The translations under genes and the position numbers were made by a program. The notes beneath the pieces were generated by a model. That model was not told the origin of the DNA. It did not search any database and saw only the letters and a list, made by a program, of their open reading frames with translations. Of a stretch of DNA of 64,000 nucleotides, positions 32,433 through 50,684 are shown piece after piece. This DNA is from Nakamurella endophytica (GTDB lineage: Bacteria; Actinomycetota; Actinomycetes; Mycobacteriales; Nakamurellaceae): positions 512,183 to 576,182 of the forward strand of contig NZ_BMNA01000001.1 in NCBI RefSeq assembly GCF_014646215.1, given 5' to 3'. The stretch's first letter is position 1. Each line of letters opens with the position of its first letter.

Positions 32433-33029
32433 GTGGCCGACCGCCGCACCACCGCGCGGGACCTCGCGCAGGTCGCCGTCTTCGCCGCCCTGCTGGCCGC
32501 ACTGGGCCTGCCGGGCACCGTGACGCTCGGCACCACGGCCGTCCCGATCACCCTGCAGACCCTGGGCGTGATGCTCGCCGGCGGCCTGCTCGGCGCCCGC
32601 AGGGGCCTGCTCGCCGTGCTGGTCTTCGACGCCCTCGTCCTGGCCGGGCTGCCGCTGCTGGCCGGCGGCCGCGGCGGCATCGGCGTGCTGGCCGGCGTCT
32701 CCGCCGGCTACCTGGTCGGCTGGCTGCCGGGCGTCGTGGTGATCGGCCTGCTGTCCCGCCGCCTGCTGCCCCGCCGGCCGCTGTGGCTGGGCATCGTGGT
32801 GCAGGTGGTCGGCGGCATCGTGGTCATCTACGCGATCGGCGTGCCGTGGACGGCGGTGCGGGCGCACCTGCCGCTGTGGACCGCGGTCGTCGACGCCGGC
32901 AAGTTCCTGCCCGGCGACGCCGTCAAGGCGGTGGTCGCGGCCGCCGTGTGCCGGCAGGTGCACCGGGCCTATCCCGGGCTGCTCGCTCCCCGCACCCCCG
33001 CCACCGGACGGACCGGAGCGCCGGTCTGA
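32433..33029 (+). CDS. bioY: Biotin transporter substrate-binding subunit BioY
   Basis: 198 residues from GTG 32433 with GAGAGG ahead. Six hydrophobic segments, with the BioY signatures VPITLQTLGVMLAGGLLG and GRGGIGVLAGVSAGYLVGWLPG and KFLPGDAVKAVVAAAV at the C-terminal helix. BioY is the S-component of an ECF transporter that binds biotin in the membrane. The energising ATPase and transmembrane subunits are encoded three and four genes downstream in the same overlapped operon. Confidence 0.93.
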   Translation: MADRRTTARDLAQVAVFAALLAALGLPGTVTLGTTAVPITLQTLGVMLAGGLLGARRGLLAVLVFDALVLAGLPLLAGGRGGIGVLAGVSAGYLVGWLPGVVVIGLLSRRLLPRRPLWLGIVVQVVGGIVVIYAIGVPWTAVRAHLPLWTAVVDAGKFLPGDAVKAVVAAAVCRQVHRAYPGLLAPRTPATGRTGAPV

Positions 33030-33097
33030 CCACGCCGGCCCGGCACCCCCGCCCGTCCGCCGCGCCGCCGCCATCGGCAACGGCCGCGCGGATCGGC

Positions 33098-34330
33098 GTG
33101 CTGGCCCGCGGGCCGGCCGACGCACCGGCGCTGACCTGGCGAGGCCGCACCCTGCGCTACACCGACCTCGCCGTTGCCGCGGACCGGCAGCGGGCGCGGT
33201 GGCGCGATGCTCCCCCGCCGCGTCCGGTGGACCTGTCCGGCTGTGACGTCCCGGAGCTGCTCGCCGGCATCCTCGCCGCCACCGCCGAGGCGGTGCCCGT
33301 GCTGGTCGCCGACCCGGCCGGACCCGCTCCCGCGGTCGGGCCGCTGCCGGCCGGGACCTGGCTGATGGCCGGCACCTCGGGCAGCACCGGGCGGCCGAGG
33401 ACGGTGGCCCGGACGCTGGCGTCGTGGACGGACTCGTTCCCGGCGCTGGCCGCGCTGGCCGGGCTGACCGCGACCGACACCGTCCTGCTCACCGGGCCGC
33501 TGCACAGCACGCTGCACCTGTTCGGCGCGCTGCACACCCTGTGGCTGGGCGCCCGGCTGACCGACCGCCCGGCGGAGGCGACCGCGGCGCACGCCGTCCC
33601 GACCGTGCTCGACCGGCTGCTGTCCGGGTCCGCTCCCCGGCTGTCCCGGGCCGTCGTCGCCGGAGCGGCCCTGCCGGACGCCGTCTCCGACCGCGCCGCG
33701 GCCCGCGGCGTGCGGGTGCTCGAGTACTACGGCGCCGCGGAGCTGTCCTTCGTCGCCGCCCGCACGCCGCCCGCGCCGTTCCGGCCGTTCCCGGGCGTCC
33801 AGGTGCAGGACCAGGACGGCGTGCTCTGGGCGCGGTCGCCGTACCTGGCCCTCGGCATGCCCGCAGCGGCGGGCGGGCGGCCCACCGGGTCCCACCGACT
33901 GGCTGACGGCTGGGCGACCGTCGGCGACCGCGGCACCGTCGGTCCCGACGGCACCGTCACGGTGGCCGGGCGGGGCGACACCGCGGTCACCGTCGGGGGT
34001 GCCACCGTCCCGGTCGAGGAGGTCGAGGACGTGCTGCGCGGCCTGCCGGGCGTCGAGGACGCCGCGGTGGCCGGAGCACCGCACGGCGCCCTCGGCCAGG
34101 TCGTGGTGGCCGCCGTCTGCCTGGTCGACCCGGTGCGGCTGGCCGCCGTCCGGACCGCGGCCCGCCGGGGCCTGCGGGCCGAGGCCCGGCCGGTGCGCTG
34201 GGTCGTCCTGGACCGGATCCCGCGGCGGGCGAACGGCAAGGTGGACCGGGTCGCGTTGTCCGGGCTGCTCGCCGAGGGTCCGGGGAGCGCCTCGCACCGG
34301 TCGCCGGCCGCCGGGCGGGTCGCCCGGTGA
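33098..34330 (+). CDS. AMP-forming acyl-CoA ligase family protein, embedded in the bio operon
   Basis: 410 residues from GTG 33098. The start is uncertain: the frame opens at a CTG overlapping the bioY stop, with no good ribosome site. The protein is shorter than a usual ANL enzyme because the N-terminal subdomain is reduced. Motifs: P-loop AGTSGSTGRPRTV, the YYGAAELSFVA segment of the A5 motif, and C-terminal IPRRANGKVDRVAL with the catalytic Lys. It activates a carboxylic acid as acyl-AMP and CoA thioester; acid unknown. The end overlaps the thiolase start by 4 nt (GTGA). A link to pimelate activation is possible because of its neighbours (inference). Confidence 0.82.
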   Translation: MLARGPADAPALTWRGRTLRYTDLAVAADRQRARWRDAPPPRPVDLSGCDVPELLAGILAATAEAVPVLVADPAGPAPAVGPLPAGTWLMAGTSGSTGRPRTVARTLASWTDSFPALAALAGLTATDTVLLTGPLHSTLHLFGALHTLWLGARLTDRPAEATAAHAVPTVLDRLLSGSAPRLSRAVVAGAALPDAVSDRAAARGVRVLEYYGAAELSFVAARTPPAPFRPFPGVQVQDQDGVLWARSPYLALGMPAAAGGRPTGSHRLADGWATVGDRGTVGPDGTVTVAGRGDTAVTVGGATVPVEEVEDVLRGLPGVEDAAVAGAPHGALGQVVVAAVCLVDPVRLAAVRTAARRGLRAEARPVRWVVLDRIPRRANGKVDRVALSGLLAEGPGSASHRSPAAGRVAR

Positions 34331-35505
34331 CCGCGGCGGGACCCGGCGGCGACCCGTGGATCGTCCGGGCCCGGCGGACGCCCATCGGCACCGCCGGGCA
34401 CGCCCTCGCCGGCTGCTCCACCACCGACCTCGCCGCCCCGCTGCTCGCCGACGCGGCCGCGGCCCTCGACGGCCGGATCGTCGACGAGGTGGTGCTGGGC
34501 AACTGCACCGGTCCCGGCGGGAACGTCGCGCGGGTCGCCGCGCTGGCGGCCGGGCTGCCGCCCGGGACCCCGGCGGTCACCGTGGACCGGCAGTGCGGGT
34601 CCGGGCTGGAGGCGGTGCTGCAGGCCGCCGCCCTTATCCGGGCCGGCGATGCGGACGTCGTGCTGGCCGGCGGTGTCGAGGCGGCGTCCACCGCGCCGTG
34701 GCGGCACTGGCCCGGTGCGCCGGGCGGCCCTCCCGGCGAGCGCTACACCCGCGCGCCGTTCGCCCCGCCCGGGCACCCGGACCCGGACATGGGCGCGGCC
34801 GCCGACGACCTGGCGCGCCGCCGCGGCTACTCCCGCGACCGCCTCGACCGGTACGCCGAGATGTCCCACGCCCGCGCCGCGGCCGCGCAGCGCGGCGGCG
34901 TCTTCGCGGCGGAGGTGGTCCCCGTCGCCGGCATCGCCCGGGACGACCGCCCCCGGACCGGGCTGACGCTGTCCCGCCTCGCCCGGCTGCCCCCCGCCTT
35001 CACCCCGGACGGCACCAGCACCGCGGGCAACTCCTGCGGCGTGTCCGACGGCGCCGCCCTGCTCACCGTGGTCGACGGCCACCGCCCCCCGGAGCAGCTG
35101 CCCGGCGAGCCCCGTCCGCTGCGGGTGGTGTCCGCCGCGGCCGTCGGCGGGGACCCGGCACTGCCCGGGGCCGCCCTGGCACCCGCCGTCCGGGCCGCGC
35201 TCGCCCACCCCCGCGCCCGGGCGCGCGGGCTGACCACCGCGTCGCTGGGGGCGGTCGAGATCACCGAGGCGTTCGCCGCGGTGGCCGTCGCCGCCCTCGA
35301 CGACCTGGACCTGGACCCGGAGCTGGTGTGCCGGGACGGCGGCGCCATCGGCCTCGGTCACCCGTGGGGCGCGTCCGGGGCGCTGCTGCTGGTCCGGCTG
35401 GCCCACCGCATGTCCGGCCCTGCCGGCGCGCGGTGGGGGCTGGCCGCCTGCGCCGTCGGCGGCGGCCAGGGCCTGGCGATGGTCGTCGAGCGGGTGGACG
35501 GGTGA
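34327..35505 (+). CDS. Thiolase (acetyl-CoA acyltransferase)
   Basis: 392 residues from GTG 34327. All catalytic parts are present: nucleophile Cys in TVDRQCGSGLEAV, EITEAFAAV, His in IGLGHPWGASGAL and the second Cys in LAACAVGGGQG. It may condense or cleave beta-ketoacyl-CoA. Its start overlaps the ligase stop, and its own stop overlaps the bioM start by 4 nt, so it is part of the same operon. Whether it works in breakdown of an imported acyl chain or synthesis of a pimeloyl thioester cannot be told from sequence. Confidence 0.9.
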   Translation: MTAAGPGGDPWIVRARRTPIGTAGHALAGCSTTDLAAPLLADAAAALDGRIVDEVVLGNCTGPGGNVARVAALAAGLPPGTPAVTVDRQCGSGLEAVLQAAALIRAGDADVVLAGGVEAASTAPWRHWPGAPGGPPGERYTRAPFAPPGHPDPDMGAAADDLARRRGYSRDRLDRYAEMSHARAAAAQRGGVFAAEVVPVAGIARDDRPRTGLTLSRLARLPPAFTPDGTSTAGNSCGVSDGAALLTVVDGHRPPEQLPGEPRPLRVVSAAAVGGDPALPGAALAPAVRAALAHPRARARGLTTASLGAVEITEAFAAVAVAALDDLDLDPELVCRDGGAIGLGHPWGASGALLLVRLAHRMSGPAGARWGLAACAVGGGQGLAMVVERVDG

Positions 35506-36206
35506 CCGAGATCCGGTTCACGGGGGTCGGCCACCGGTTCGGCGAGCGGACGGTGCTCGCCGGCGTGGACCTGGTGCTCACCGAGCGGCGCATCGGCGTC
35601 GTCGGCGGCAACGGCTCCGGCAAGTCGACGCTGGCCCGGATGATCAACGGGCTGGTGCTGCCGTCGACCGGGACGGTCACCGTGGACGGCCTGTCGACCG
35701 CCCGGAAGGGCCGTGACGTGCGCCGCCGGGTCGGGTTCGTCTTCACCGACCCGGACAACCAGATCGTCATGCCGACCGTGGCCGAGGACGTCGCCTTCTC
35801 GCTGCGCCGGCACCGGCTGCCGGACCCCGAGGTGCGGCGCCGGGTGACCGAGGTGCTGGACCGGTTCGACCTGGCCGGCCACGCCGACCACCCGGCCCAC
35901 CAGCTCTCCGGCGGGCAGAAGCAGCTCCTGGCGCTGGCCGCGGTGCTGGTCACCGACCCCGACGTGCTCGTCGCGGACGAGCCGACCACGCTGCTCGACG
36001 CCCGGAACGCCCGCCGGGTCGCCGCGCTGCTCGCCGAGCTGCCGCAGCAGGTCGTCCTGGTCACCCATCACCTGCACCTGCTGTCCGGCTTCGACCGGGT
36101 GGTCGTGGTGGACGGGGGGCGGGTGGTGGCGGACGCCGATCCGGCGACGGCGCTCGCGGCCTACGACCGGGTGCTCGCCGACCCGGCGGGACCGGCGATC
36201 CCGTGA
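35502..36206 (+). CDS. bioM: Biotin ECF transporter ATPase BioM
   Basis: 234 residues from GTG 35502. ABC ATPase with Walker A GGNGSGKSTLARM, Q-loop region FTDPDNQIVMPTVAEDV (typical of EcfA/CbiO), signature LSGGQKQLLALA, Walker B VLVADEPTTLLD and switch His in VTHHLHLL. It powers the biotin transporter BioYMN. Start overlaps the thiolase stop (GTGA) and its stop overlaps bioN the same way. Confidence 0.92.
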   Translation: MTEIRFTGVGHRFGERTVLAGVDLVLTERRIGVVGGNGSGKSTLARMINGLVLPSTGTVTVDGLSTARKGRDVRRRVGFVFTDPDNQIVMPTVAEDVAFSLRRHRLPDPEVRRRVTEVLDRFDLAGHADHPAHQLSGGQKQLLALAAVLVTDPDVLVADEPTTLLDARNARRVAALLAELPQQVVLVTHHLHLLSGFDRVVVVDGGRVVADADPATALAAYDRVLADPAGPAIP

Positions 36207-36805
36207 CCGCCCTCGGCCTGTACCGGCCCGGCACCTCCGTGCTGCACCGGCTGCCCGCGGGGGCGAAGCTGGTCGGCCTGCTGGCGGGCACGGTCCTGCT
36301 CGTGGTGCTGCGCCGGCCGTGGCAGCTGGGCCTGGCCGCCCTGGTCGAGGTGCTGCTCTACGCGCTCGCCCGGATCCCGCCCGGCGTCGCCTGGACGCAG
36401 CTGCGCCCGCTGCGCTGGCTGGTCGTGGTGGTGGCGGCGGCGCAGCTCCTGCTCGCCGGATGGCAGCAGGCGCTGTGGGTCACCGGCGGCCTGGTGCTGA
36501 CCGTGGCGCTGGCCGCGTTGCTGACCCTGACCACCCGGGTCACCGCCCTGCTCGACGTGCTGCACCGGCTCCTGCGGCCGCTGCGCCGGTTCGGGGTCGA
36601 CGGGGACCGCGTCGCGCTGCTGCTGGCCCTCACCATCCGGCTGGTGCCGGTGCTCAGCGGCATCGTCCGCGAGGTGCAGGAGGCCCGCACCGCCCGGGGC
36701 GCCGGCTGGTCGCTGACCGCGGTGGCGGCACCGGCCGTGGTGCGCGCGTTGCGGACGGCCGACCACGTCGGCGAGGCCCTGGTGGCGCGCGGCGTCGACG
36801 ACTGA
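36203..36805 (+). CDS. bioN: Biotin ECF transporter transmembrane subunit BioN
   Basis: 200 residues from GTG 36203. EcfT-type membrane protein: SVLHRLPAGAKLVGLLAGTVLLVVLRRPW, several helices, and the cytoplasmic coupling sequences ending in EVQEARTARGAGW, the conserved ARG motif region that contacts the ATPase. It is the last gene of the operon and links BioM to BioY. Length is somewhat below the usual EcfT, in line with BioN. Confidence 0.88.
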   Translation: MTALGLYRPGTSVLHRLPAGAKLVGLLAGTVLLVVLRRPWQLGLAALVEVLLYALARIPPGVAWTQLRPLRWLVVVVAAAQLLLAGWQQALWVTGGLVLTVALAALLTLTTRVTALLDVLHRLLRPLRRFGVDGDRVALLLALTIRLVPVLSGIVREVQEARTARGAGWSLTAVAAPAVVRALRTADHVGEALVARGVDD

Positions 36806-38674: not shown

Positions 38675-39709
38675 ATGGCAGACGACCGGGGCACGGTGGA
38701 CCGGCCCGGGCGCCGCCGCACCCGCGGGCGCGCGGACCCGTGGTCCGCCGCGATGGACGCCCTGCCGGACCGGGTCGCCGTGCTGGACCGCGGCGGCCGG
38801 GTGCTGGCGGCGAACCGGTCCTGGACGCTCGACGCGGGCGGATGCCGGGCCGGCGCCTCCTACCTCGAGGTGTGCGACCGCGCCGCCCGGGGTGGTGACC
38901 CCTCTGCCGGACGCCTGCACACCGCGCTGGTGGGCGTCCTCGGCGGCGCCCGCCCGTCCGCCGAGGTCGACTACCCGGACCCGACCGGGGACCGCTGGTG
39001 GCGCGCGGAGATCCGGCGGCTGCCCGACGACGCCGGCGGACGGGACCGGACGGTGGTGCGGCACCTGGAGGTGACCGAGTGGGTCCGCACCCGGGAGGCG
39101 CTGCGCACCCAGGCCGTCACCGACCCGCTCACCGGGCTGGTCAACCGCCGCGTGCTCGACGACCGGCTCGGCCGGATCCTGGGCCCGGCCGGTCCGGACC
39201 AGCCCACGGCGCTGCTGCTGGCGGACGTCGACCACTTCAAGGCGATCAACGACGTCCACGGGCACCTGGCCGGGGACCGCTGCCTGGCGCAGGTGGCGCA
39301 GTGGTTGCGGCAGCACACCCGGCCGCAGGACCTGATCTGCCGGTGGGGCGGCGACGAGTTCGTGGTGCTGGTGCAGGCGCCGGGGGCCGCGGACGTCGAG
39401 GCCGTGGAGAGCCGGCTCCGTCGCTGGGCCGGCGGGTCCGTGGCCGGCGTCCCGGTCACGCTCACCTGGGGCTCGGCGCACGCCCGCGCCGGCGACACCC
39501 CCGGCACCCTGCTGGCCCGGGCGGACCACGAGCTGCGCCTGGCCAAGAGCCGGCGGGACGACCGGGACCGCGGCGACGGCCTGCGCGGCCGCCGGCTCGC
39601 CGTCGTCCCCTCCGTGGGCCGGTACCCTGATGCCGTCCGCCAGGGCGACACCAGTCCCCTGCCGGCGCCCCGCCTCCATAGCTCAGGGGATAGAGCATCG
39701 GTTTCCTAA
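38675..39709 (+). CDS. Diguanylate cyclase (GGDEF) with N-terminal sensory domain
   Basis: 344 residues from ATG 38675 with GGAGGGACGGG ahead. A PAS-like N-terminal part (DRVAVLDRGGRVLAANRSW to the LEVTEWVRTREAL linker) precedes a GGDEF domain with DPLTGLVNRRVLDDRLG, the metal/substrate segment LLLADVDHFKAINDVHGH and active loop CRWGGDEFVVLVQ. It makes c-di-GMP from two GTP; the I-site RxxD was not seen. The reading frame runs on past the domain and only stops at a TAA at 39707-39709, inside the tRNA-Arg gene. No membrane helix; the signal sensed is unknown. Confidence 0.88.
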   Translation: MADDRGTVDRPGRRRTRGRADPWSAAMDALPDRVAVLDRGGRVLAANRSWTLDAGGCRAGASYLEVCDRAARGGDPSAGRLHTALVGVLGGARPSAEVDYPDPTGDRWWRAEIRRLPDDAGGRDRTVVRHLEVTEWVRTREALRTQAVTDPLTGLVNRRVLDDRLGRILGPAGPDQPTALLLADVDHFKAINDVHGHLAGDRCLAQVAQWLRQHTRPQDLICRWGGDEFVVLVQAPGAADVEAVESRLRRWAGGSVAGVPVTLTWGSAHARAGDTPGTLLARADHELRLAKSRRDDRDRGDGLRGRRLAVVPSVGRYPDAVRQGDTSPLPAPRLHSSGDRASVS

Positions 39710-39744
39710 ACCGTGTGTCGTAGGTTCGAATCCTACTGGGGGCA
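39672..39744 (+). tRNA. tRNA-Arg (CCT)
   Basis: A 73-nt cloverleaf: acceptor GCCTCCA/TGGGGGC, D arm GCTC-AGGGGATA-GAGC, anticodon loop TTCCTAA (anticodon CCT, arginine AGG), T arm GTAGG-TTCGAAT-CCTAC and discriminator A. One mismatch is at the outer anticodon pair (T-T). CCA is not encoded. The 5' 38 nt lie inside the open frame of the diguanylate cyclase. Confidence 0.95.
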
Positions 39745-39777
39745 CAGCCTTCTCACACTCGTCACGGTGGAGGTGCG

Positions 39778-42699: not shown

Positions 42700-43635
42700 T
42701 CAGCGCACGGCGTCGGGCCGCAGCAGGGCGTGCACGCCCCAGGTCCGGTTCGCCACCTGGGTCACCCGGAGGTCGACCACCGCACTGGCCAGCGCGAGCG
42801 CCTCCGCCCGGCCGAGGCCGTGCAGCCGGGCCAGCCAGTCGACCATCGCGTCCAGCGCCTGCGCCGCCGCCTCGTCGAGGGAGGCGTCGAAGCCGAACGT
42901 CAGCCGACCCTCCGGCGTCTGCGCGTAGATGCCGGACACCGGCGGGTCGGCCACCAGGTCCAGGGTGACGGTGCTGGTCATCCCGCACTCGATCGCCGTC
43001 CCGCTGACCTCGCCGTCGCCCTGCGCGGCGTGGCCGTCACCCAGGCACAACAGCCCGCCGGCGACGGTGACCGGCAGGTGGAGCGTCGACCCGGCGACCA
43101 GGCTGCGGCAGTCGATGTTGCCGCCGCCGACCGGCCGCGGCGGGATCGTGGAGTGCTCGCCGTCCGGCTCCGGCGGCATACCGACCACGCCGAGGAACGG
43201 GGCCAGCCGCACCCGGTGCCCGAACTGGTCGGTGCCGGTGCCCGTGCGGGTGGCCGGATCCCAGTCCAGCGTCCACCGCAGCCAGGCCGGTTCACCCGGC
43301 GTCAGCCGCAGGCGGCGGTTCAGCCACGTGTCGCGCGCACCGGCCACCGTCCAGCCCCAGTCGTCCGGGTCGACCGCGTCGAACCGGACGGCCAGCACGT
43401 CGCCCGGGCGGGCACCGCGGACGGCGATCGGTCCGGTCAGGCAGTGTCCGGCGCTCTGCGGCAGCAGCGTCGGCACCCGCTCCCCCGGCGTCCCGTGCGG
43501 CCGCAGCGACCCCGAGGCGTCCAGCGACCGCACCACCACCGTGTCACCCGGGTCGACGGTCAGCACGGCTGGCCGGGCGGCGGCGAACACGTCGACGACG
43601 GTGTCCGCGCGGGCGTCGAGGCGGTGCGTCGTCAT
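42700..43635 (-). CDS. Acetamidase/formamidase family protein
   Basis: 311 residues from ATG 43635, which overlaps the oleD stop by 4 nt (ATGA). The family is recognised by VLTVDPGDTVVVRSLDA, PRPVGGGNIDCRSLVAGSTLHLPV (metal-binding Asp-Cys region) and CLGDGHAAQGDGEVSGTAIECGM. FmdA/AmdA enzymes hydrolyse formamide, acetamide or related amides and are cytosolic. It is the last gene of the ole operon, a pairing for which I know no described role. Confidence 0.88.
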   Translation of the reverse strand: MTTHRLDARADTVVDVFAAARPAVLTVDPGDTVVVRSLDASGSLRPHGTPGERVPTLLPQSAGHCLTGPIAVRGARPGDVLAVRFDAVDPDDWGWTVAGARDTWLNRRLRLTPGEPAWLRWTLDWDPATRTGTGTDQFGHRVRLAPFLGVVGMPPEPDGEHSTIPPRPVGGGNIDCRSLVAGSTLHLPVTVAGGLLCLGDGHAAQGDGEVSGTAIECGMTSTVTLDLVADPPVSGIYAQTPEGRLTFGFDASLDEAAAQALDAMVDWLARLHGLGRAEALALASAVVDLRVTQVANRTWGVHALLRPDAVR

Positions 43636-44606
43636 GTCCCGGCTCCTGCGGCGTGGGCGGCGAGCGCCGCGAAACCCTGCTCGAGCGGGATACGCGGCAC
43701 CCAGCGCAAGACCTCGCGGGTGCGGCGCTGGTCGAACCAATGCGCGGTGCCGAGCTGCTCGGCCAGGAACCGCGACATGGGCGGATCGCTCGCCGGGCGC
43801 AGCCGGCGGAACACCTGCTCGGCGACGGCACCGGCCGCCACCGCGACCGGCAGGGGCACCCGCCCGCGCGGCCCGGGCACGCCGTGCGCCTGGCAGATCC
43901 GCTGCAGCAGCTCGCCGACCGGCCGCGGTTCGCCGTTGGAGACCACCAGCGCCTCGCCGTGCGCGGCGCCGCAGACGTCCACCGCGGCGACCAGGGCGTC
44001 GACGGCGTTGTCCAGGTACGTGCTGTCGATCAGGGCCGCGCCGGTGCCGACGAGCGGCAGCCGGCCGCGGCGCGCCCGGTCGACGATCTTGGCGACCAGC
44101 TGCCGGTCCCCCGCACCCCACACCAGGTGCGGCCGGACGGCGAGCACGGCCAGGTCCGGCGCGTCGGCCGCCAGTGCGACCTGCTCGGCGACCGCCTTGG
44201 ACCGCGAGTAGTCGCCGCGGGCGCCCTCCGGGTCCGCGGGCTGCGCACCCGCACCCACCAGCGGGTCCCCGGCGTGGGCGACGGAGGGCGACGACACGTG
44301 CACCAGCCGGCCCACGCCGCCGGCGCGGCAGCCCCGGACGACCGCCTGGGTGCCGCCGATGTTGGCGGCGGCGAACTCGCGCCACGTGCCCTGGATGCCG
44401 ACCTTGGCCGCGAGGTGCAGGACGGCGTCCTGGCCGGCCGCCGCCCGGGCCACGGCATCCCGGTCGGTCACGTCGGCCAGCACCTCCCGGCATCCCAGGC
44501 CGGCCGGCCGGCGCTGCAGCACCGTCACCTCGTCGCCACGGTCCAGCAGGGCCCGGGCGGTGGCGCCGCCGAGCAGGCCGGTCCCGCCGGTCAGCAGGAT
44601 CCTCAT
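43632..44606 (-). CDS. oleD: OleD: NAD(P)H-dependent 2-alkyl-3-ketoalkanoate reductase
   Basis: 324 residues from ATG 44606. Extended SDR: Rossmann motif ILLTGGTGLLGGATARALLDRG, active site GDYSRSKAVAE (Tyr and Lys), RPHLVWGAGDRQLV and a C-terminal part resembling 3-beta-HSD/epimerases. In the olefin pathway OleD reduces the beta-keto acid from OleA to the beta-hydroxy acid. The start overlaps the stop of oleBC (ATGA) and the end overlaps the amidase start the same way. Confidence 0.9.
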   Translation of the reverse strand: MRILLTGGTGLLGGATARALLDRGDEVTVLQRRPAGLGCREVLADVTDRDAVARAAAGQDAVLHLAAKVGIQGTWREFAAANIGGTQAVVRGCRAGGVGRLVHVSSPSVAHAGDPLVGAGAQPADPEGARGDYSRSKAVAEQVALAADAPDLAVLAVRPHLVWGAGDRQLVAKIVDRARRGRLPLVGTGAALIDSTYLDNAVDALVAAVDVCGAAHGEALVVSNGEPRPVGELLQRICQAHGVPGPRGRVPLPVAVAAGAVAEQVFRRLRPASDPPMSRFLAEQLGTAHWFDQRRTREVLRWVPRIPLEQGFAALAAHAAGAGT

Positions 44607-47338
44607 CCGCCGGCGAGCACCCGGCCGGCCCAGGACGCGACGGCGACCCGGTCGATCTTCGACTGGTGCCGGATGTCGACCGGCAGCGCCGGCCGGCGCA
44701 GCACGGCGGCGAGCGGGCGCCCGGCGGCCGCACGGACGGCGGCCACCAGATCCGGGTCCGGCAAGGGGCCGGCCCCGCGGCGGCCGCCGGCGACCACGGC
44801 GACGACCTGCTGCACCCCGGCCGGTCCGACGCCGACGACGGCGACGTCCGCCGGGCCGCCGGCGCCGGACACCGCACCGGTGATGCGCTGCTCGATGCCG
44901 ACCGGGGTGACCGGACCGGTCTCGGTCGCGATGACGTGGGCGGTCCGGCCCTGCACCCAGATCCGGCCGTCGGCGTCCAGCACGCCGACGTCGCCGGTGC
45001 GGTGCCAGCCGGGCGCCGCCCAGCCGTCCCGGTCGGCGAGCCACAGCGCGTCGTAGCCGTCCCGGACGTGCTCGGCCTGCACGCACAGCTCGCCTACCAC
45101 GCCCGGCCGGTCGGTGAGCCCCGCGGTGGGCCGACCGTCCGGACCGAGCGGGCTGACCTGCACGCGGACGCCGGGCACCGGCCGGCCGACGCAGACGCCG
45201 TCACCGGGGCCGGCGGCCTCGATCCCGGCCAGGTCGATGTCCGCGACGGGCAGCGCCTCGGTCATCCCGTAGGGCGTGTGCAGCGTGGCGTCGGGCAGCA
45301 GCGCCTGCAGCCGGCGCAGCAGCACGGCGGGGACCGGCGCCCCGGCGCTGGTCAGCACCCGGACCCCGGCGAGCGCCACCCGCTCCGCCGCGGTGAGCCC
45401 GTCCGCGGTCGCCAGCACGGTCCGCAGGGCCGCGGGCGCCGCGAAGACGGTGGTGGCGTCGACGGCGCGCACCGCCTCGGCCAGCAGGGGTGCGGTGAGC
45501 GTCGCAGGTGCGGTGACGTCGATCCGCGGGACCGCCGACGGCACGCCGAGAGCCGGCCCGTAGAGCGCGAAGGGGGCGAAGGCGGCGACCATGGCGTCCC
45601 CGGGCCGGACGTCGAAGACCCGGCGCACCAGCTCCAGCTGCGCCCGCAACTGCCGGTGCCGGTACCGGACACCCTTGGCCGGGCCGGTGGCGCCGGACGT
45701 GAACAGCACCGCCGCCTCAAGGTCCGGATCGTCGACCTCACGGTCGGGCGCGCCGTCACCGGTGGCGGACGTGGCGCCGGACAGATCCTCGACGTGGATG
45801 CGTCGACCCGGCAGGCCGAGGGCGCGGGCGGCGACGAGCGCGGTCCGGCCGCCGAGGACGTGGTCGGCCGCGGTGCTGCGCAGCGCCCGGCGGATGCCCG
45901 CCAGCCCGAGCCCGCGGTCGGCGAGCACCACGGACCCGCCGACCCACCACACCGCGTAGACCGCCACCACCAGGTCCACCGACGGCGGCACCAGCAGCGC
46001 GACCCGCCGCCCCGGCCCGACGCCGGCGCGGCGGAGCACCGCGGCGGCGTCCCGGATGCGGCGGTGCAGCTCCCGCCAGGAGACCGTGCCGCGGCCGATC
46101 TCGACGACGGCGGCGGTGTCGTCGCCGGCGCGGGCGCGGACCGCGTCCAGCAGCGACGGGCGGCCGGTGGCGGGGTCAGCGGCGGCATCGGCGGCCGTGG
46201 ACGGTGCGGCATCGGTTGCCACGGCGATGTCCGCGGTCCTGGTCGCCGGAGCGGTGTCCGCGGTGCCGGCGGCTCCCCCGTCGGGCATCTCCGCGGCGGC
46301 CCCGTCGGCCACCTCGGGGGCGGCCCCGGACGGACCGGGTGTCCCGGGCACGTCGAGTTCGGCCACCCAGCGCGTCACGGCCGTCACGTACCCGGGGGCG
46401 TCCTCCGGCAGCAGGTGGCCGGCGCGCTCGAAGCGGTGCAGCCGGGCGTGCGGCAGGCGAGCGCGCAGGTCGGCCAGGTGCTCCTCGAGGAAAACCGGGT
46501 CCCGCGGTCCCCACAGCAGCAACGCGGGCACGTCGAGGTGCCGGATGCCCTCTGCGACGGCGTCGACGGCCGGGCGGCTCGGGTGCCCAGCGGCGAAGGG
46601 GATGTCGGCGACGAAGTCGGAGACCGCCGCCCGCCGGGTCGCGGCGCGGTAGGGCTCGGCGTAGGCGTCACGGATGTCCTTCGGCGGCCGGGGCACGTTC
46701 ACGGAGGTCGCCGCGCGGACGAACAACGGCGTCCGGCGGCACGTCAGCTCGTTGACCCACCGGCGGTGCGCCAGCCGGATCAACACCGGTCCCGGCGAGG
46801 TCTCGGGCTGGTGGACGGCGGTGTTGCAGAGCACCACGGAGACCAGCTGGTCGGGGTGCCGCACCGCCCAGCCGAGCGAGACGACCCCACCCCAGTCGTG
46901 CCCGACGGTGACGACAGGCCCGGTGATCCCGAGGGCGTCGGTCAGCCGGCCGAGGTCGTCGATCCGCCGGGCCAGGTCGCGGGGCTGCCCGGGGCGCTCG
47001 GAGAACCCCATGCCCAGCTGGTCGGGGGCCACGACGCGCCATCCCGGCGGTGCCGCGGCCACGAGCCGGCGCCACAGGTAGCTCCAGGTCGGGTTGCCGT
47101 GGACGCACAGCAGCGTGCCGCCCGTGGTGGCGGCGCGAGGGGCGGCCGCGTCGACGGCGGCGCCGTCCGGCCCGACCGCCGAGTCCAACACGTGGAACGC
47201 ACGGTCCACGCCGTCGGCGTCCTGGACGGTCACCAGCCGCGACCATCGCGGATCCAGCCCGGGCACCCCCGCGGGCGGCACTGCCGCCGCCCTGGGCCCG
47301 GCCGGCGTCACCGGCGCGCCCCCGCGGCGGCGGATCAC
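44603..47338 (-). CDS. oleBC: OleBC fusion: beta-lactone decarboxylase and beta-lactone synthetase
   Basis: 911 residues from GTG 47338, overlapping the oleA stop by 4 nt (GTGA). Residues about 1-330 are an OleB alpha/beta-hydrolase of haloalkane-dehalogenase type: VHGNPTWSYLWRRLV, nucleophile Asp in VGHDWGGVVSLGW, and His in ERAGHLLPEDAPG. A 70-residue Ala/Pro/Asp linker with repeats (about 330-400) follows, then OleC, an ANL-type synthetase: VLFTSGATGPAKGVRYRH, TPYGMTEALPVAD, WHRTGDVGVLDADGRIW. OleC closes the beta-hydroxy acid to a beta-lactone; OleB decarboxylates it to a cis-olefin. Fusion is known in Micrococcus-type actinobacteria. Confidence 0.92.
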   Translation of the reverse strand: MIRRRGGAPVTPAGPRAAAVPPAGVPGLDPRWSRLVTVQDADGVDRAFHVLDSAVGPDGAAVDAAAPRAATTGGTLLCVHGNPTWSYLWRRLVAAAPPGWRVVAPDQLGMGFSERPGQPRDLARRIDDLGRLTDALGITGPVVTVGHDWGGVVSLGWAVRHPDQLVSVVLCNTAVHQPETSPGPVLIRLAHRRWVNELTCRRTPLFVRAATSVNVPRPPKDIRDAYAEPYRAATRRAAVSDFVADIPFAAGHPSRPAVDAVAEGIRHLDVPALLLWGPRDPVFLEEHLADLRARLPHARLHRFERAGHLLPEDAPGYVTAVTRWVAELDVPGTPGPSGAAPEVADGAAAEMPDGGAAGTADTAPATRTADIAVATDAAPSTAADAAADPATGRPSLLDAVRARAGDDTAAVVEIGRGTVSWRELHRRIRDAAAVLRRAGVGPGRRVALLVPPSVDLVVAVYAVWWVGGSVVLADRGLGLAGIRRALRSTAADHVLGGRTALVAARALGLPGRRIHVEDLSGATSATGDGAPDREVDDPDLEAAVLFTSGATGPAKGVRYRHRQLRAQLELVRRVFDVRPGDAMVAAFAPFALYGPALGVPSAVPRIDVTAPATLTAPLLAEAVRAVDATTVFAAPAALRTVLATADGLTAAERVALAGVRVLTSAGAPVPAVLLRRLQALLPDATLHTPYGMTEALPVADIDLAGIEAAGPGDGVCVGRPVPGVRVQVSPLGPDGRPTAGLTDRPGVVGELCVQAEHVRDGYDALWLADRDGWAAPGWHRTGDVGVLDADGRIWVQGRTAHVIATETGPVTPVGIEQRITGAVSGAGGPADVAVVGVGPAGVQQVVAVVAGGRRGAGPLPDPDLVAAVRAAAGRPLAAVLRRPALPVDIRHQSKIDRVAVASWAGRVLAGG

Positions 47339-48366
47339 CAGACGATCTCGGAGAACGACACGTTGAGGCCCGACCCCACACCCATCAGCAGCACCCGGTC
47401 CCCGGCCTCCAGCTCGTCCGCGACGGTGGACAGGGCGAACGGGATGGCCGCCGGGCCGAGGTTGCCGCGCGTCGGGAAGACCAGCGGCACCCGGTCGGCC
47501 GGCAGCTGCAGCGCCTGCGAGATGGCACGGGTGTGCACCGTGCTGACCTGGTGCATGACGTACCGCTGCATGCCCTGGTCCCATCCCCAGTCGGCCGCGG
47601 ACTCGTCCCACAGCTGCAGGGTGAGCTCCAGCCCGGCCTTCATCAGGCCGGTGCTGTCCGTGCTCATGTGCTCCATGGTCCCGACACAGAGCTCGTGGTG
47701 CTCGCTGCCCGCGCGGGTCGCCCCGCCCAGGTACCGGTGGCCCTCCGGGTGCGCATCGGCGCGACCCAGCACCATCGCGGCCGCTCCGGAGCCCAGGGTC
47801 AGCGACGCGAACTGCTCGAAGACCTCCTTGGCGTTGCCCGTGCTCTCGTGCAACCGCCGGATGGTCGCCTCGTGGATCGGCTGCGCGTCCTCGCCGTTGA
47901 CGACCAGCGCGTACTCGATCTGGCCGCTCTCCAGCATCGCGGCCGCCAGCTGCATGCCGTTGACGAAGCCCAGGCAAGCGTTGGTGACGTCGAAGTTCTG
48001 GCAGGAGCTGGGCAGACCGAGCGCGTGGTGCACCGCGACGGCGGTGCTGGGCTCCAGATACTGCCGGCTGACCGAGGTGTTGATCATCAGGCCGATCTGG
48101 CTGGGATGCACGCCGGCCTCGGCGATCGCCTTGGCGCCGGCCATGGCCGCGCCGTCGACGAACGACGTCCCGCGGTTCCACCAGCGGCGCTCGTGGATGC
48201 CGGCCAGCCCGCCGAGCATGCCGGGCCGCAGGCCGACGCGCTGGTACACCGGCGCCAGCCGCTCGTCCATCTCCGCGGAGGTCACCACCCGCGGGGCGTC
48301 GATGGCACAGACGGCCAGCACGGACGTGTTCGTGTAGCGATGGATCGAGTTACCGGCCATGCCCAT
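47335..48366 (-). CDS. oleA: OleA: head-to-head acyl-CoA condensing enzyme
   Basis: 343 residues from ATG 48366; an ATG at 48360 is the alternative. Thiolase-fold KAS-III-like enzyme: VTNACLGFVNGMQ (Cys nucleophile), MHQVSTVHTRAI (His) and TRGNLGPAAIPFALS (Asn). Other segments such as GLAGIHERRWW match OleA. OleA joins two fatty acyl-CoA by non-decarboxylative Claisen condensation to a 2-alkyl-3-ketoacid. First gene of the ole operon; the gap of 261 bp behind it to the small ORF at 48628 holds its promoter. Confidence 0.92.
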   Translation of the reverse strand: MGMAGNSIHRYTNTSVLAVCAIDAPRVVTSAEMDERLAPVYQRVGLRPGMLGGLAGIHERRWWNRGTSFVDGAAMAGAKAIAEAGVHPSQIGLMINTSVSRQYLEPSTAVAVHHALGLPSSCQNFDVTNACLGFVNGMQLAAAMLESGQIEYALVVNGEDAQPIHEATIRRLHESTGNAKEVFEQFASLTLGSGAAAMVLGRADAHPEGHRYLGGATRAGSEHHELCVGTMEHMSTDSTGLMKAGLELTLQLWDESAADWGWDQGMQRYVMHQVSTVHTRAISQALQLPADRVPLVFPTRGNLGPAAIPFALSTVADELEAGDRVLLMGVGSGLNVSFSEIVW

Positions 48367-48828: not shown

Positions 48829-50565
48829 CTACCCCCGATGCGGAATCTCCAGATGAGAGCTGGACTCGGCCTGTTCCAGGCCCGGCGAGTCCCGGTCCGG
48901 GGAGGCCTCGGCGTGCATCCGTTCGATGATCTGCGGATGGTGCAGCTCGAAGGCCGGGCGCTCGGACCGGATCCGCGGCAGCGAGGTGAAGTTGTGCCGC
49001 GGCGGCGGTGAGCTGGTCGCCCACTCCAGCGAGTTCCCGTAGCCCCACGGGTCGTCGGCGGTGGTGACCTCGCCGTAGCGCAGCGACCGCAGCACGTTCC
49101 AGACGAACGGCAGGGTGGATGCGCCCAGCAGGAACGCGCCGATCGTCGAGACGGTGTGCAAGCCGGTGAAGCCGTCGCTGGGCAGGTAGTCGGCGTAGCG
49201 GCGCGGCATCCCCATCGTGCCCAACCAGTGCTGCACCAGGAACGTCAGGTGGAACCCCGCGAAGGTGGTCCAGAAGTGCAGTTTGCCCAGTCGCTCGTCC
49301 AGGAACCGGCCGGTCATCTTGGGGAACCAGAAGTAGATGCCGGCATAGGTGGCGAACACGATCGTGCCGAACAGCACGTAGTGGAAGTGCGCCACCACGA
49401 AGTAGGTGTCCGAGACGTGGAAGTCCAGCGACGGTGCCGCCAGGATGATCCCGGTCAGGCCGCCGAGCAGGAAGGTGACCAGGAAGCCGCAGGCGAAGAG
49501 CATCGGTGACTCGAACGTCAGCTGGCCGCGCCACATGCTGCCGATCCAGTTGAAGAACTTCAGGCCGGTCGGCACGGCGATGAGGAACGTCGTCAGGCTG
49601 AAGAACGGCAGCAGCACCGCCCCGGTCACGAACATGTGGTGCGCCCACACCACCACCGACAGCGCCGCGATGCTCAACGTGGCGAACACCAGCCCGCGGT
49701 AGCCGAACACCGGTTTGCGGGAGAAGACCGGGAAGATCTCGGTGACGATGCCGAAGAACGGCAGCGCGACGATGTAGACCTCGGGGTGGCCGAAGAACCA
49801 GAACAGGTGCTGCCACAGGATCGCGCCGCCGTTGGCCGGGTCGAAGACGTGGGCGCCGAAATGCCGGTCCGCCTCCAGGCCCAGCAGTGCTGCGGTCAGG
49901 ACGGGGAACGCCAGCAGCACCAGGATCGCAGTCACGAAGATGTTCCAGGTGAAGATCGGCATCCGCCACATCGTCATGCCCGGGGCGCGCAGGCAGATCA
50001 CCGTGGTGATCATGTTGACCCCGCCGAGGATGGTGCCGAGCCCGGACACGACCAGGCCCATCACCCACAGGTCCGCACCGATCTGCGGCGAGTTCACGCT
50101 GTCCGACAGCGGCGCGTAGGCGGTCCAGCCGAATTGCGGGCCACCCGTCGGCGTCAGGAACCCGGACGTCGTGACGATGGCCCCGAAGAAGTACAGCCAG
50201 TACGCCAGCGAGTTCAGCCGCGGGAACGCGACGTCCGGAGCGCCGATCTGAAGTGGCAGCACGAAGTTGGCGAAGCCGAACAGCACCGGTGTCGCGTACA
50301 GCAGCAACATGATCGTGCCGTGCGCGGTGAACAGCTCGTTGTACTGCTCCTGGGACAGGAACTGCAGACCGGGCCTGGCGAGTTCGGCGCGCATCAGCAG
50401 CGCCATGAAGCCACCGACGACGAACCAGAAGAACGCGGTGACCAGGTACATCTTCCCGAGCACCTTGGGGTCCGTGGTGCGCAGGTAGTTCAGCAGCACC
50501 ACGCCGGGACGCGGTCTGCCGACCGGACGGGGCCGGGTCGCGGGACGGGGCAGGACAGCGGTCAT
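48829..50565 (-). CDS. ctaD: Cytochrome c oxidase subunit I
   Basis: 578 residues from ATG 50565 with AGGAGGG ahead. All heme-copper oxidase marks are present: heme a His in [26 protein letters not shown] (CuB His and the Glu-Tyr pair), the CuB His pair in [12 protein letters not shown], and heme ligands in [11 protein letters not shown]. The typical N-terminal short tail and twelve helices are present. The C-terminal 60 residues are hydrophilic. Subunits II and III are not in the window. Reduces O2 to water in the membrane, pumping protons. Confidence 0.97.
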
Positions 50566-50684
50566 GCACACCCTCCTGGCGGCCGGACGGGCTGCTGTTC
50601 AACACGGACCGGGCCTTGGCGCTCCGTGGTGACTACCCCGGCGGCGCCGGGGTCAAACCGGCACCGGGGCGGCGCCCGGCACCG

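Follow-up and report, generated by a model that had tools for sequence, protein, structure and literature searches.

The amidase gene that closes a four-gene run behind oleA, oleBC and oleD is most likely a chance neighbour of the olefin genes and not an added step in their pathway. We consider it very probable that the run consists of an inherited, standard olefin operon and an independently captured small-amide hydrolase that has no role in olefin formation and is probably co-expressed with it. The window we analysed, a stretch of 64,000 nucleotides (G000:C1:512183-576182) of a 4.94-Mb genome, carries the four genes successively and codirectionally on its minus strand within positions 42700-48360. 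The first, oleA (47335..48360, with a start at 48360 or 48366), encodes a predicted acyl-CoA head-to-head condensing thiolase of 341 aa. Next is oleBC (44603..47338, start codon uncertain), whose product fuses OleB (beta-lactone decarboxylase, an alpha/beta hydrolase) to OleC (beta-lactone synthetase, AMP-binding). It is followed by oleD (43632..44606), encoding an NAD(P)H-dependent 2-alkyl-3-oxoalkanoate reductase, and by the full-length FmdA/AmdA family amidase gene (42700..43635, 311 aa), the last of the run.

An earlier note on this DNA had described the four genes as linked by 4-nt ATGA/GTGA overlaps. Both ATGA overlaps are present, at the oleD/amidase junction (43632-43635) and at the oleBC/oleD junction (44603-44606), and the oleA/oleBC overlap (GTGA, 47335-47338) is conditional on OleBC starting at GTG 47338. 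This candidate start has no Shine-Dalgarno sequence, and our in-house gene caller chose 47281. We regard the oleA/oleBC overlap as probably genuine; 4-nt overlaps at oleA/oleBC and at oleBC/oleD are also found in the same-genus loci L048, L050 and L051. The ATG of the amidase gene agrees with the start positions of its homologues and lies 7 nt downstream of an AGGAG Shine-Dalgarno-like site (43643..43647, minus strand) within the 3' end of oleD. The overlapping arrangement of the four genes is itself not a chance pattern, though 4-nt overlaps are frequent in such genomes.

The identification of the three Ole proteins in the earlier note held up. OleA scored 444 bits against NCBIfam NF006720 (cut-off 285) and is 72-80% identical to OleA from seven same-genus species. 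It contains one occurrence of EPxx[AS]x(14,18)DxxNACL, the published OleA signature (PMC7158056). Ole operons have been recognized by this signature together with OleBCD homologues within 5 kb (PMC7158056), and in the window OleBC and OleD adjoin OleA. OleBC matched the Pfam families Abhydrolase_1 and AMP-binding, carries the motifs HDWGG (the nucleophile motif of the hydrolase half) and FTSGATGPAK, and matched the olefin beta-lactone synthetase model NF045786 with an E value of 2.9e-69, under the strict cut-off. The presence of OleB, which is used to tell olefin from beta-lactone producers, is indicated by HDWGG and a complete alpha/beta hydrolase domain. OleD has the motifs GGTGLLG and YSRSK, is 54-69% identical to OleD of 12 relatives and had NF042422 as a match (E 7.9e-92, again under the strict cut-off), its top match being 2-alkyl-3-oxoalkanoate reductase. 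That OleC and OleD miss their strict equivalog cut-offs would not be surprising for an actinobacterium, given that both models bear the names of proteobacterial enzymes. The low-complexity linker of OleBC that had been described is also present (46160..46351, minus strand, about residues 330-393, delimited from the sequence and from a comparison of linker lengths). It spans about 60-70 residues rich in Ala, Pro, Asp and Thr, and is longer than the linkers of the relatives compared, in which 16 to 57 residues separate the OleB match from the OleC match; the length of the linker is therefore unconstrained. Judged by these profiles and motifs, the Ole identifications are sound, with the motifs intact.

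The operon shares gene order, OleBC fusion, protein families and OleA signature with the oleA-oleBC-oleD operons known from actinobacteria such as Micrococcus luteus (PMC7158056, PMC7064751). It differs from the Micrococcus luteus type in having the amidase gene after oleD and in its host, which lies outside Micrococcales. According to the pathway in the literature, OleA would condense a pair of fatty acyl-CoAs into a beta-keto acid, which OleD would reduce, the OleC half of OleBC would close the beta-lactone, and the OleB half is predicted to decarboxylate the beta-lactone to a long-chain alkene. Micrococcales has been stated to be the sole Gram-positive order with ole clusters (PMC7158056). 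We observed ole operons in the family of the window genome and in same-order Geodermatophilaceae (loci L047-L059), so their range is wider than that study states (we searched other literature briefly), with fused oleBC operons in several families of this order, beyond Micrococcales. The neighbours of the ole operon differ in nearly every same-genus species, only G001 and G006 having common flanks, which suggests either that the core is mobile as one block or that its surroundings are often rearranged.

The four-gene ole-amidase operon is not conserved; the arrangement was seen in one genome. From relatives we fetched 13 ole loci (L047-L059), 12 of which include the operon through oleD (eight from same-genus and four from same-order genomes), and none of the 12 complete operons has an amidase gene after oleD. 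The sequence directly 3' of oleD is unrelated, the downstream genes checked being DUF1206, HpcH/HpaI, Abhydrolase_2 and malate dehydrogenase. A sample of 399 genomes from the order contained 71 with an amidase homologue (E<=1e-55), 62 with OleA and 25 with both, and among these 25 linked OleA and amidase genes were found only in the window genome. Six of the others have both genes on one contig at a distance of 1 to 2.3 Mb, and the remainder have them on separate contigs. Another 395 genomes sampled across the class added two with both genes, separated by 70 kb and 2.8 Mb. Across order and class, then, 0 of 26 other both-gene genomes have OleA and amidase in one operon and the closest pair is 70 kb apart, in a comparison that covers homologues and not strictly orthologues, since some of the amidases that co-occur with OleA, such as the Geodermatophilaceae ones, fall into a second clade. 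Seen from the amidase side, none of 80 named loci of amidase relatives has an ole operon nearby within the sequence examined, and the OleC-like matches in these loci are weak (27-30% identity), as from any AMP-binding protein. The earlier note had named an amidase unlinked in close relatives as an observation that would speak against its reading, and the amidase is unlinked in every other genome with both genes.

The same note had taken the tight coupling as an argument against chance capture. This argument finds no support in the unlinked relatives, in the discordant phylogenies described below or in the frequency of such overlaps, which join about one-fifth of same-strand neighbours (8 of 37 pairs in the window, 39 of 170 among relatives). 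In Amycolatopsis, the gene of an amidase relative shares a 4-nt overlap with that of a P-type ATPase, as does the one in Frigoribacterium with the gene of a GntR/FCD regulator; the Arthrobacter relative adjoins a phosphoglycerate dehydrogenase gene. A 4-nt overlap speaks for transcriptional and translational coupling, not for a common pathway. In a high-GC actinobacterium, a 4-nt overlap of start and stop codons should thus be treated with caution as weak evidence of a common pathway, and it is the comparison of relatives that settles the matter.

These comparisons also bear on whether the olefin pathway of this species has recruited the amidase, either to act on an amide derived from its product or from one of its intermediates, or as a beta-lactone lactonase that diverts or clears the beta-lactone. 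The ATGA coupling and the amidase's own Shine-Dalgarno sequence directly after oleD speak for such recruitment, and the FmdA/AmdA family includes a gamma-lactamase (2wkn), which makes cyclic substrates possible in principle. We nevertheless consider recruitment improbable: the linkage is absent from all of the other both-gene genomes, every pathway step is already covered, no intermediate is an amide, and close amidase homologues either belong to transporter operons or have unrelated neighbours. We give slightly less credence still to a version in which the gene was captured and its product is now a working part of the pathway that opens the beta-lactone or cleaves a lipid amide formed from an Ole intermediate. 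For a pathway role in this one species there is no support beyond adjacency; if it were true, the amidase would constitute a new branch for the ole operon.

The histories of the two parts of the run are consistent with independent capture. In the OleA tree, the window copy falls inside the genus clade with support of 99/99, and one divergent same-genus OleA (G002) falls outside it. A foreign origin of the ole operon was rejected on account of this grouping. In the amidase tree, the window copy is separated both from G004 and from the same-genus pair G006/G014, which itself has 100/100 support; copies from Streptomyces, Curtobacterium, Arthrobacter, Pseudonocardiaceae and others fall in between. 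The simplest account of this discordance is that the operon was inherited and the amidase gained separately; the lineage leading to this species would have acquired the amidase gene independently, the gene coming to sit at the 3' end of the ole operon. By composition the amidase gene does not stand out as foreign: its GC3 and codon use fall within the usual range for the window (rank 35 of 50), and its relatives are also high-GC. We found no signs of insertion at the oleD/amidase junction: no tRNA gene lies closer than 2.9 kb, none of the repeats is informative, and GC and codon use are normal. A search for the empty site was likewise negative, the flanks of the run in the window (ctaD and GGDEF-EAL) not lying beside ole genes in any relative examined.

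An arrangement present in one genome only could also reflect an assembly artefact at the oleD/amidase junction. The junction lies deep in an 842-kb contig of an assembly that is 99% complete and 0.4% contaminated, an in-frame start and a Shine-Dalgarno sequence fit the register of the overlap, and the codon use of the amidase gene is that of its surroundings. We therefore rejected this explanation on the strength of the long contig and the in-register overlap, and regard its probability as close to negligible.

The assignment of the last gene to the FmdA/AmdA family, also made in the earlier note, is well supported. Its product scored 100.4 bits against PF03069 (gathering score 27; E 1.3e-28), and its AlphaFold2 model has a mean pLDDT of 93.8. 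All structures matched by this model in Foldseek belong to the FmdA/AmdA family (E 1e-24 to 3e-17), the best PDB matches being the acetamidases/formamidases 2ii1, 2f4l and 3b9t; across sequence and fold searches, structural matches were restricted to family members (2ii1, 2f4l, 3b9t, 3tkk, 5ubu and 2wkn). The columns of the family motifs are invariant across 20 amidase homologues and are all present in the window amidase, which has the whole-length fold and the GGNID and GDGHAxQGDGE motifs in common with the family (PF03069; 2ii1, 2f4l, 3b9t, 5ubu, 3tkk). It differs in belonging to a short, 311-aa actinobacterial clade and in scoring far under the formamidase cut-off. It reaches 70.4 bits against the formamidase equivalog NF045496, whose cut-off is 500, so we do not label it a formamidase.

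The neighbourhoods of amidase relatives point to a substrate class. A transporter-amidase operon is present in three lineages, namely the same-genus genome G006 (L060:6149-13815), a Pseudonocardiales MAG (L130:4418-11934) and Kribbella rubisoli (L135:4530-11907). Its genes encode, in order, a binding protein (SBP_bac_5), two permeases (BPD_transp_1), a fused double ATPase (ABC_tran-oligo_HPY) and the amidase, directly followed, with a 4-nt overlap, by a MetX-like hydrolase (PRK07581). The amidases of these operons are 61-65% identical to that of the window, but their companions are an oligopeptide-type ABC transporter and the MetX-like hydrolase, whereas the window has ole genes. The Frigoribacterium amidase gene lies near a similar transporter, a gamma-glutamyltranspeptidase and the GntR/FCD regulator. 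Such neighbours indicate that these amidases hydrolyse a small or peptide-like amide after its import. By analogy, the window amidase most likely hydrolyses a small amide (formamide- or acetamide-like, or peptide-derived) to an acid and ammonia. In the window genome, the transporter binding protein and the MetX-like hydrolase have only weak homologues (26-36% identity), which suggests that the amidase gene did not bring the transporter operon along.

Weighing against chance capture are the intact frame, the complete set of conserved motifs and the good Shine-Dalgarno sequence, which show that the amidase is under selection of some kind, perhaps tied to the expression of the ole genes. The gene has its own ribosome-binding site and is probably transcribed together with the ole genes. 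Another possibility is that the amidase serves in nitrogen or carbon scavenging and that selection favours its attachment to the ole genes because the two are then regulated together, for instance during starvation or in stationary phase, with no chemical link between them. An archaeal homologue from Halorubrum supports growth on acetamide (PMC5052560), which agrees with this proposal, as do the intact gene and its ribosome-binding site. Against it, a simple scan for sigma-70-like promoters and for terminators at the locus was empty, a result that is uninformative at such GC because the scan covers few actinobacterial promoters. We judge selected co-regulation unlikely, about as much so as recruitment to the pathway, and favour capture of the amidase gene by chance.

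We also noted three features elsewhere in the window. Positions 32433-36805 hold a single run encoding BioY, an AMP-binding protein, a thiolase, an ABC ATPase and a CbiQ-type permease. Its last four genes are joined by 4-nt overlaps, and it has the composition of an ECF biotin-type transporter with an embedded acyl-CoA ligase and thiolase. The cytochrome oxidase subunit I gene at 48829-50571 has a second genomic copy (G000:C5:166295-168031) at 82% identity. Finally, the 3' end predicted for a PAS-GGDEF gene (38675-39709) shares 38 nt with a tRNA-Arg (CCT) at 39672-39745.
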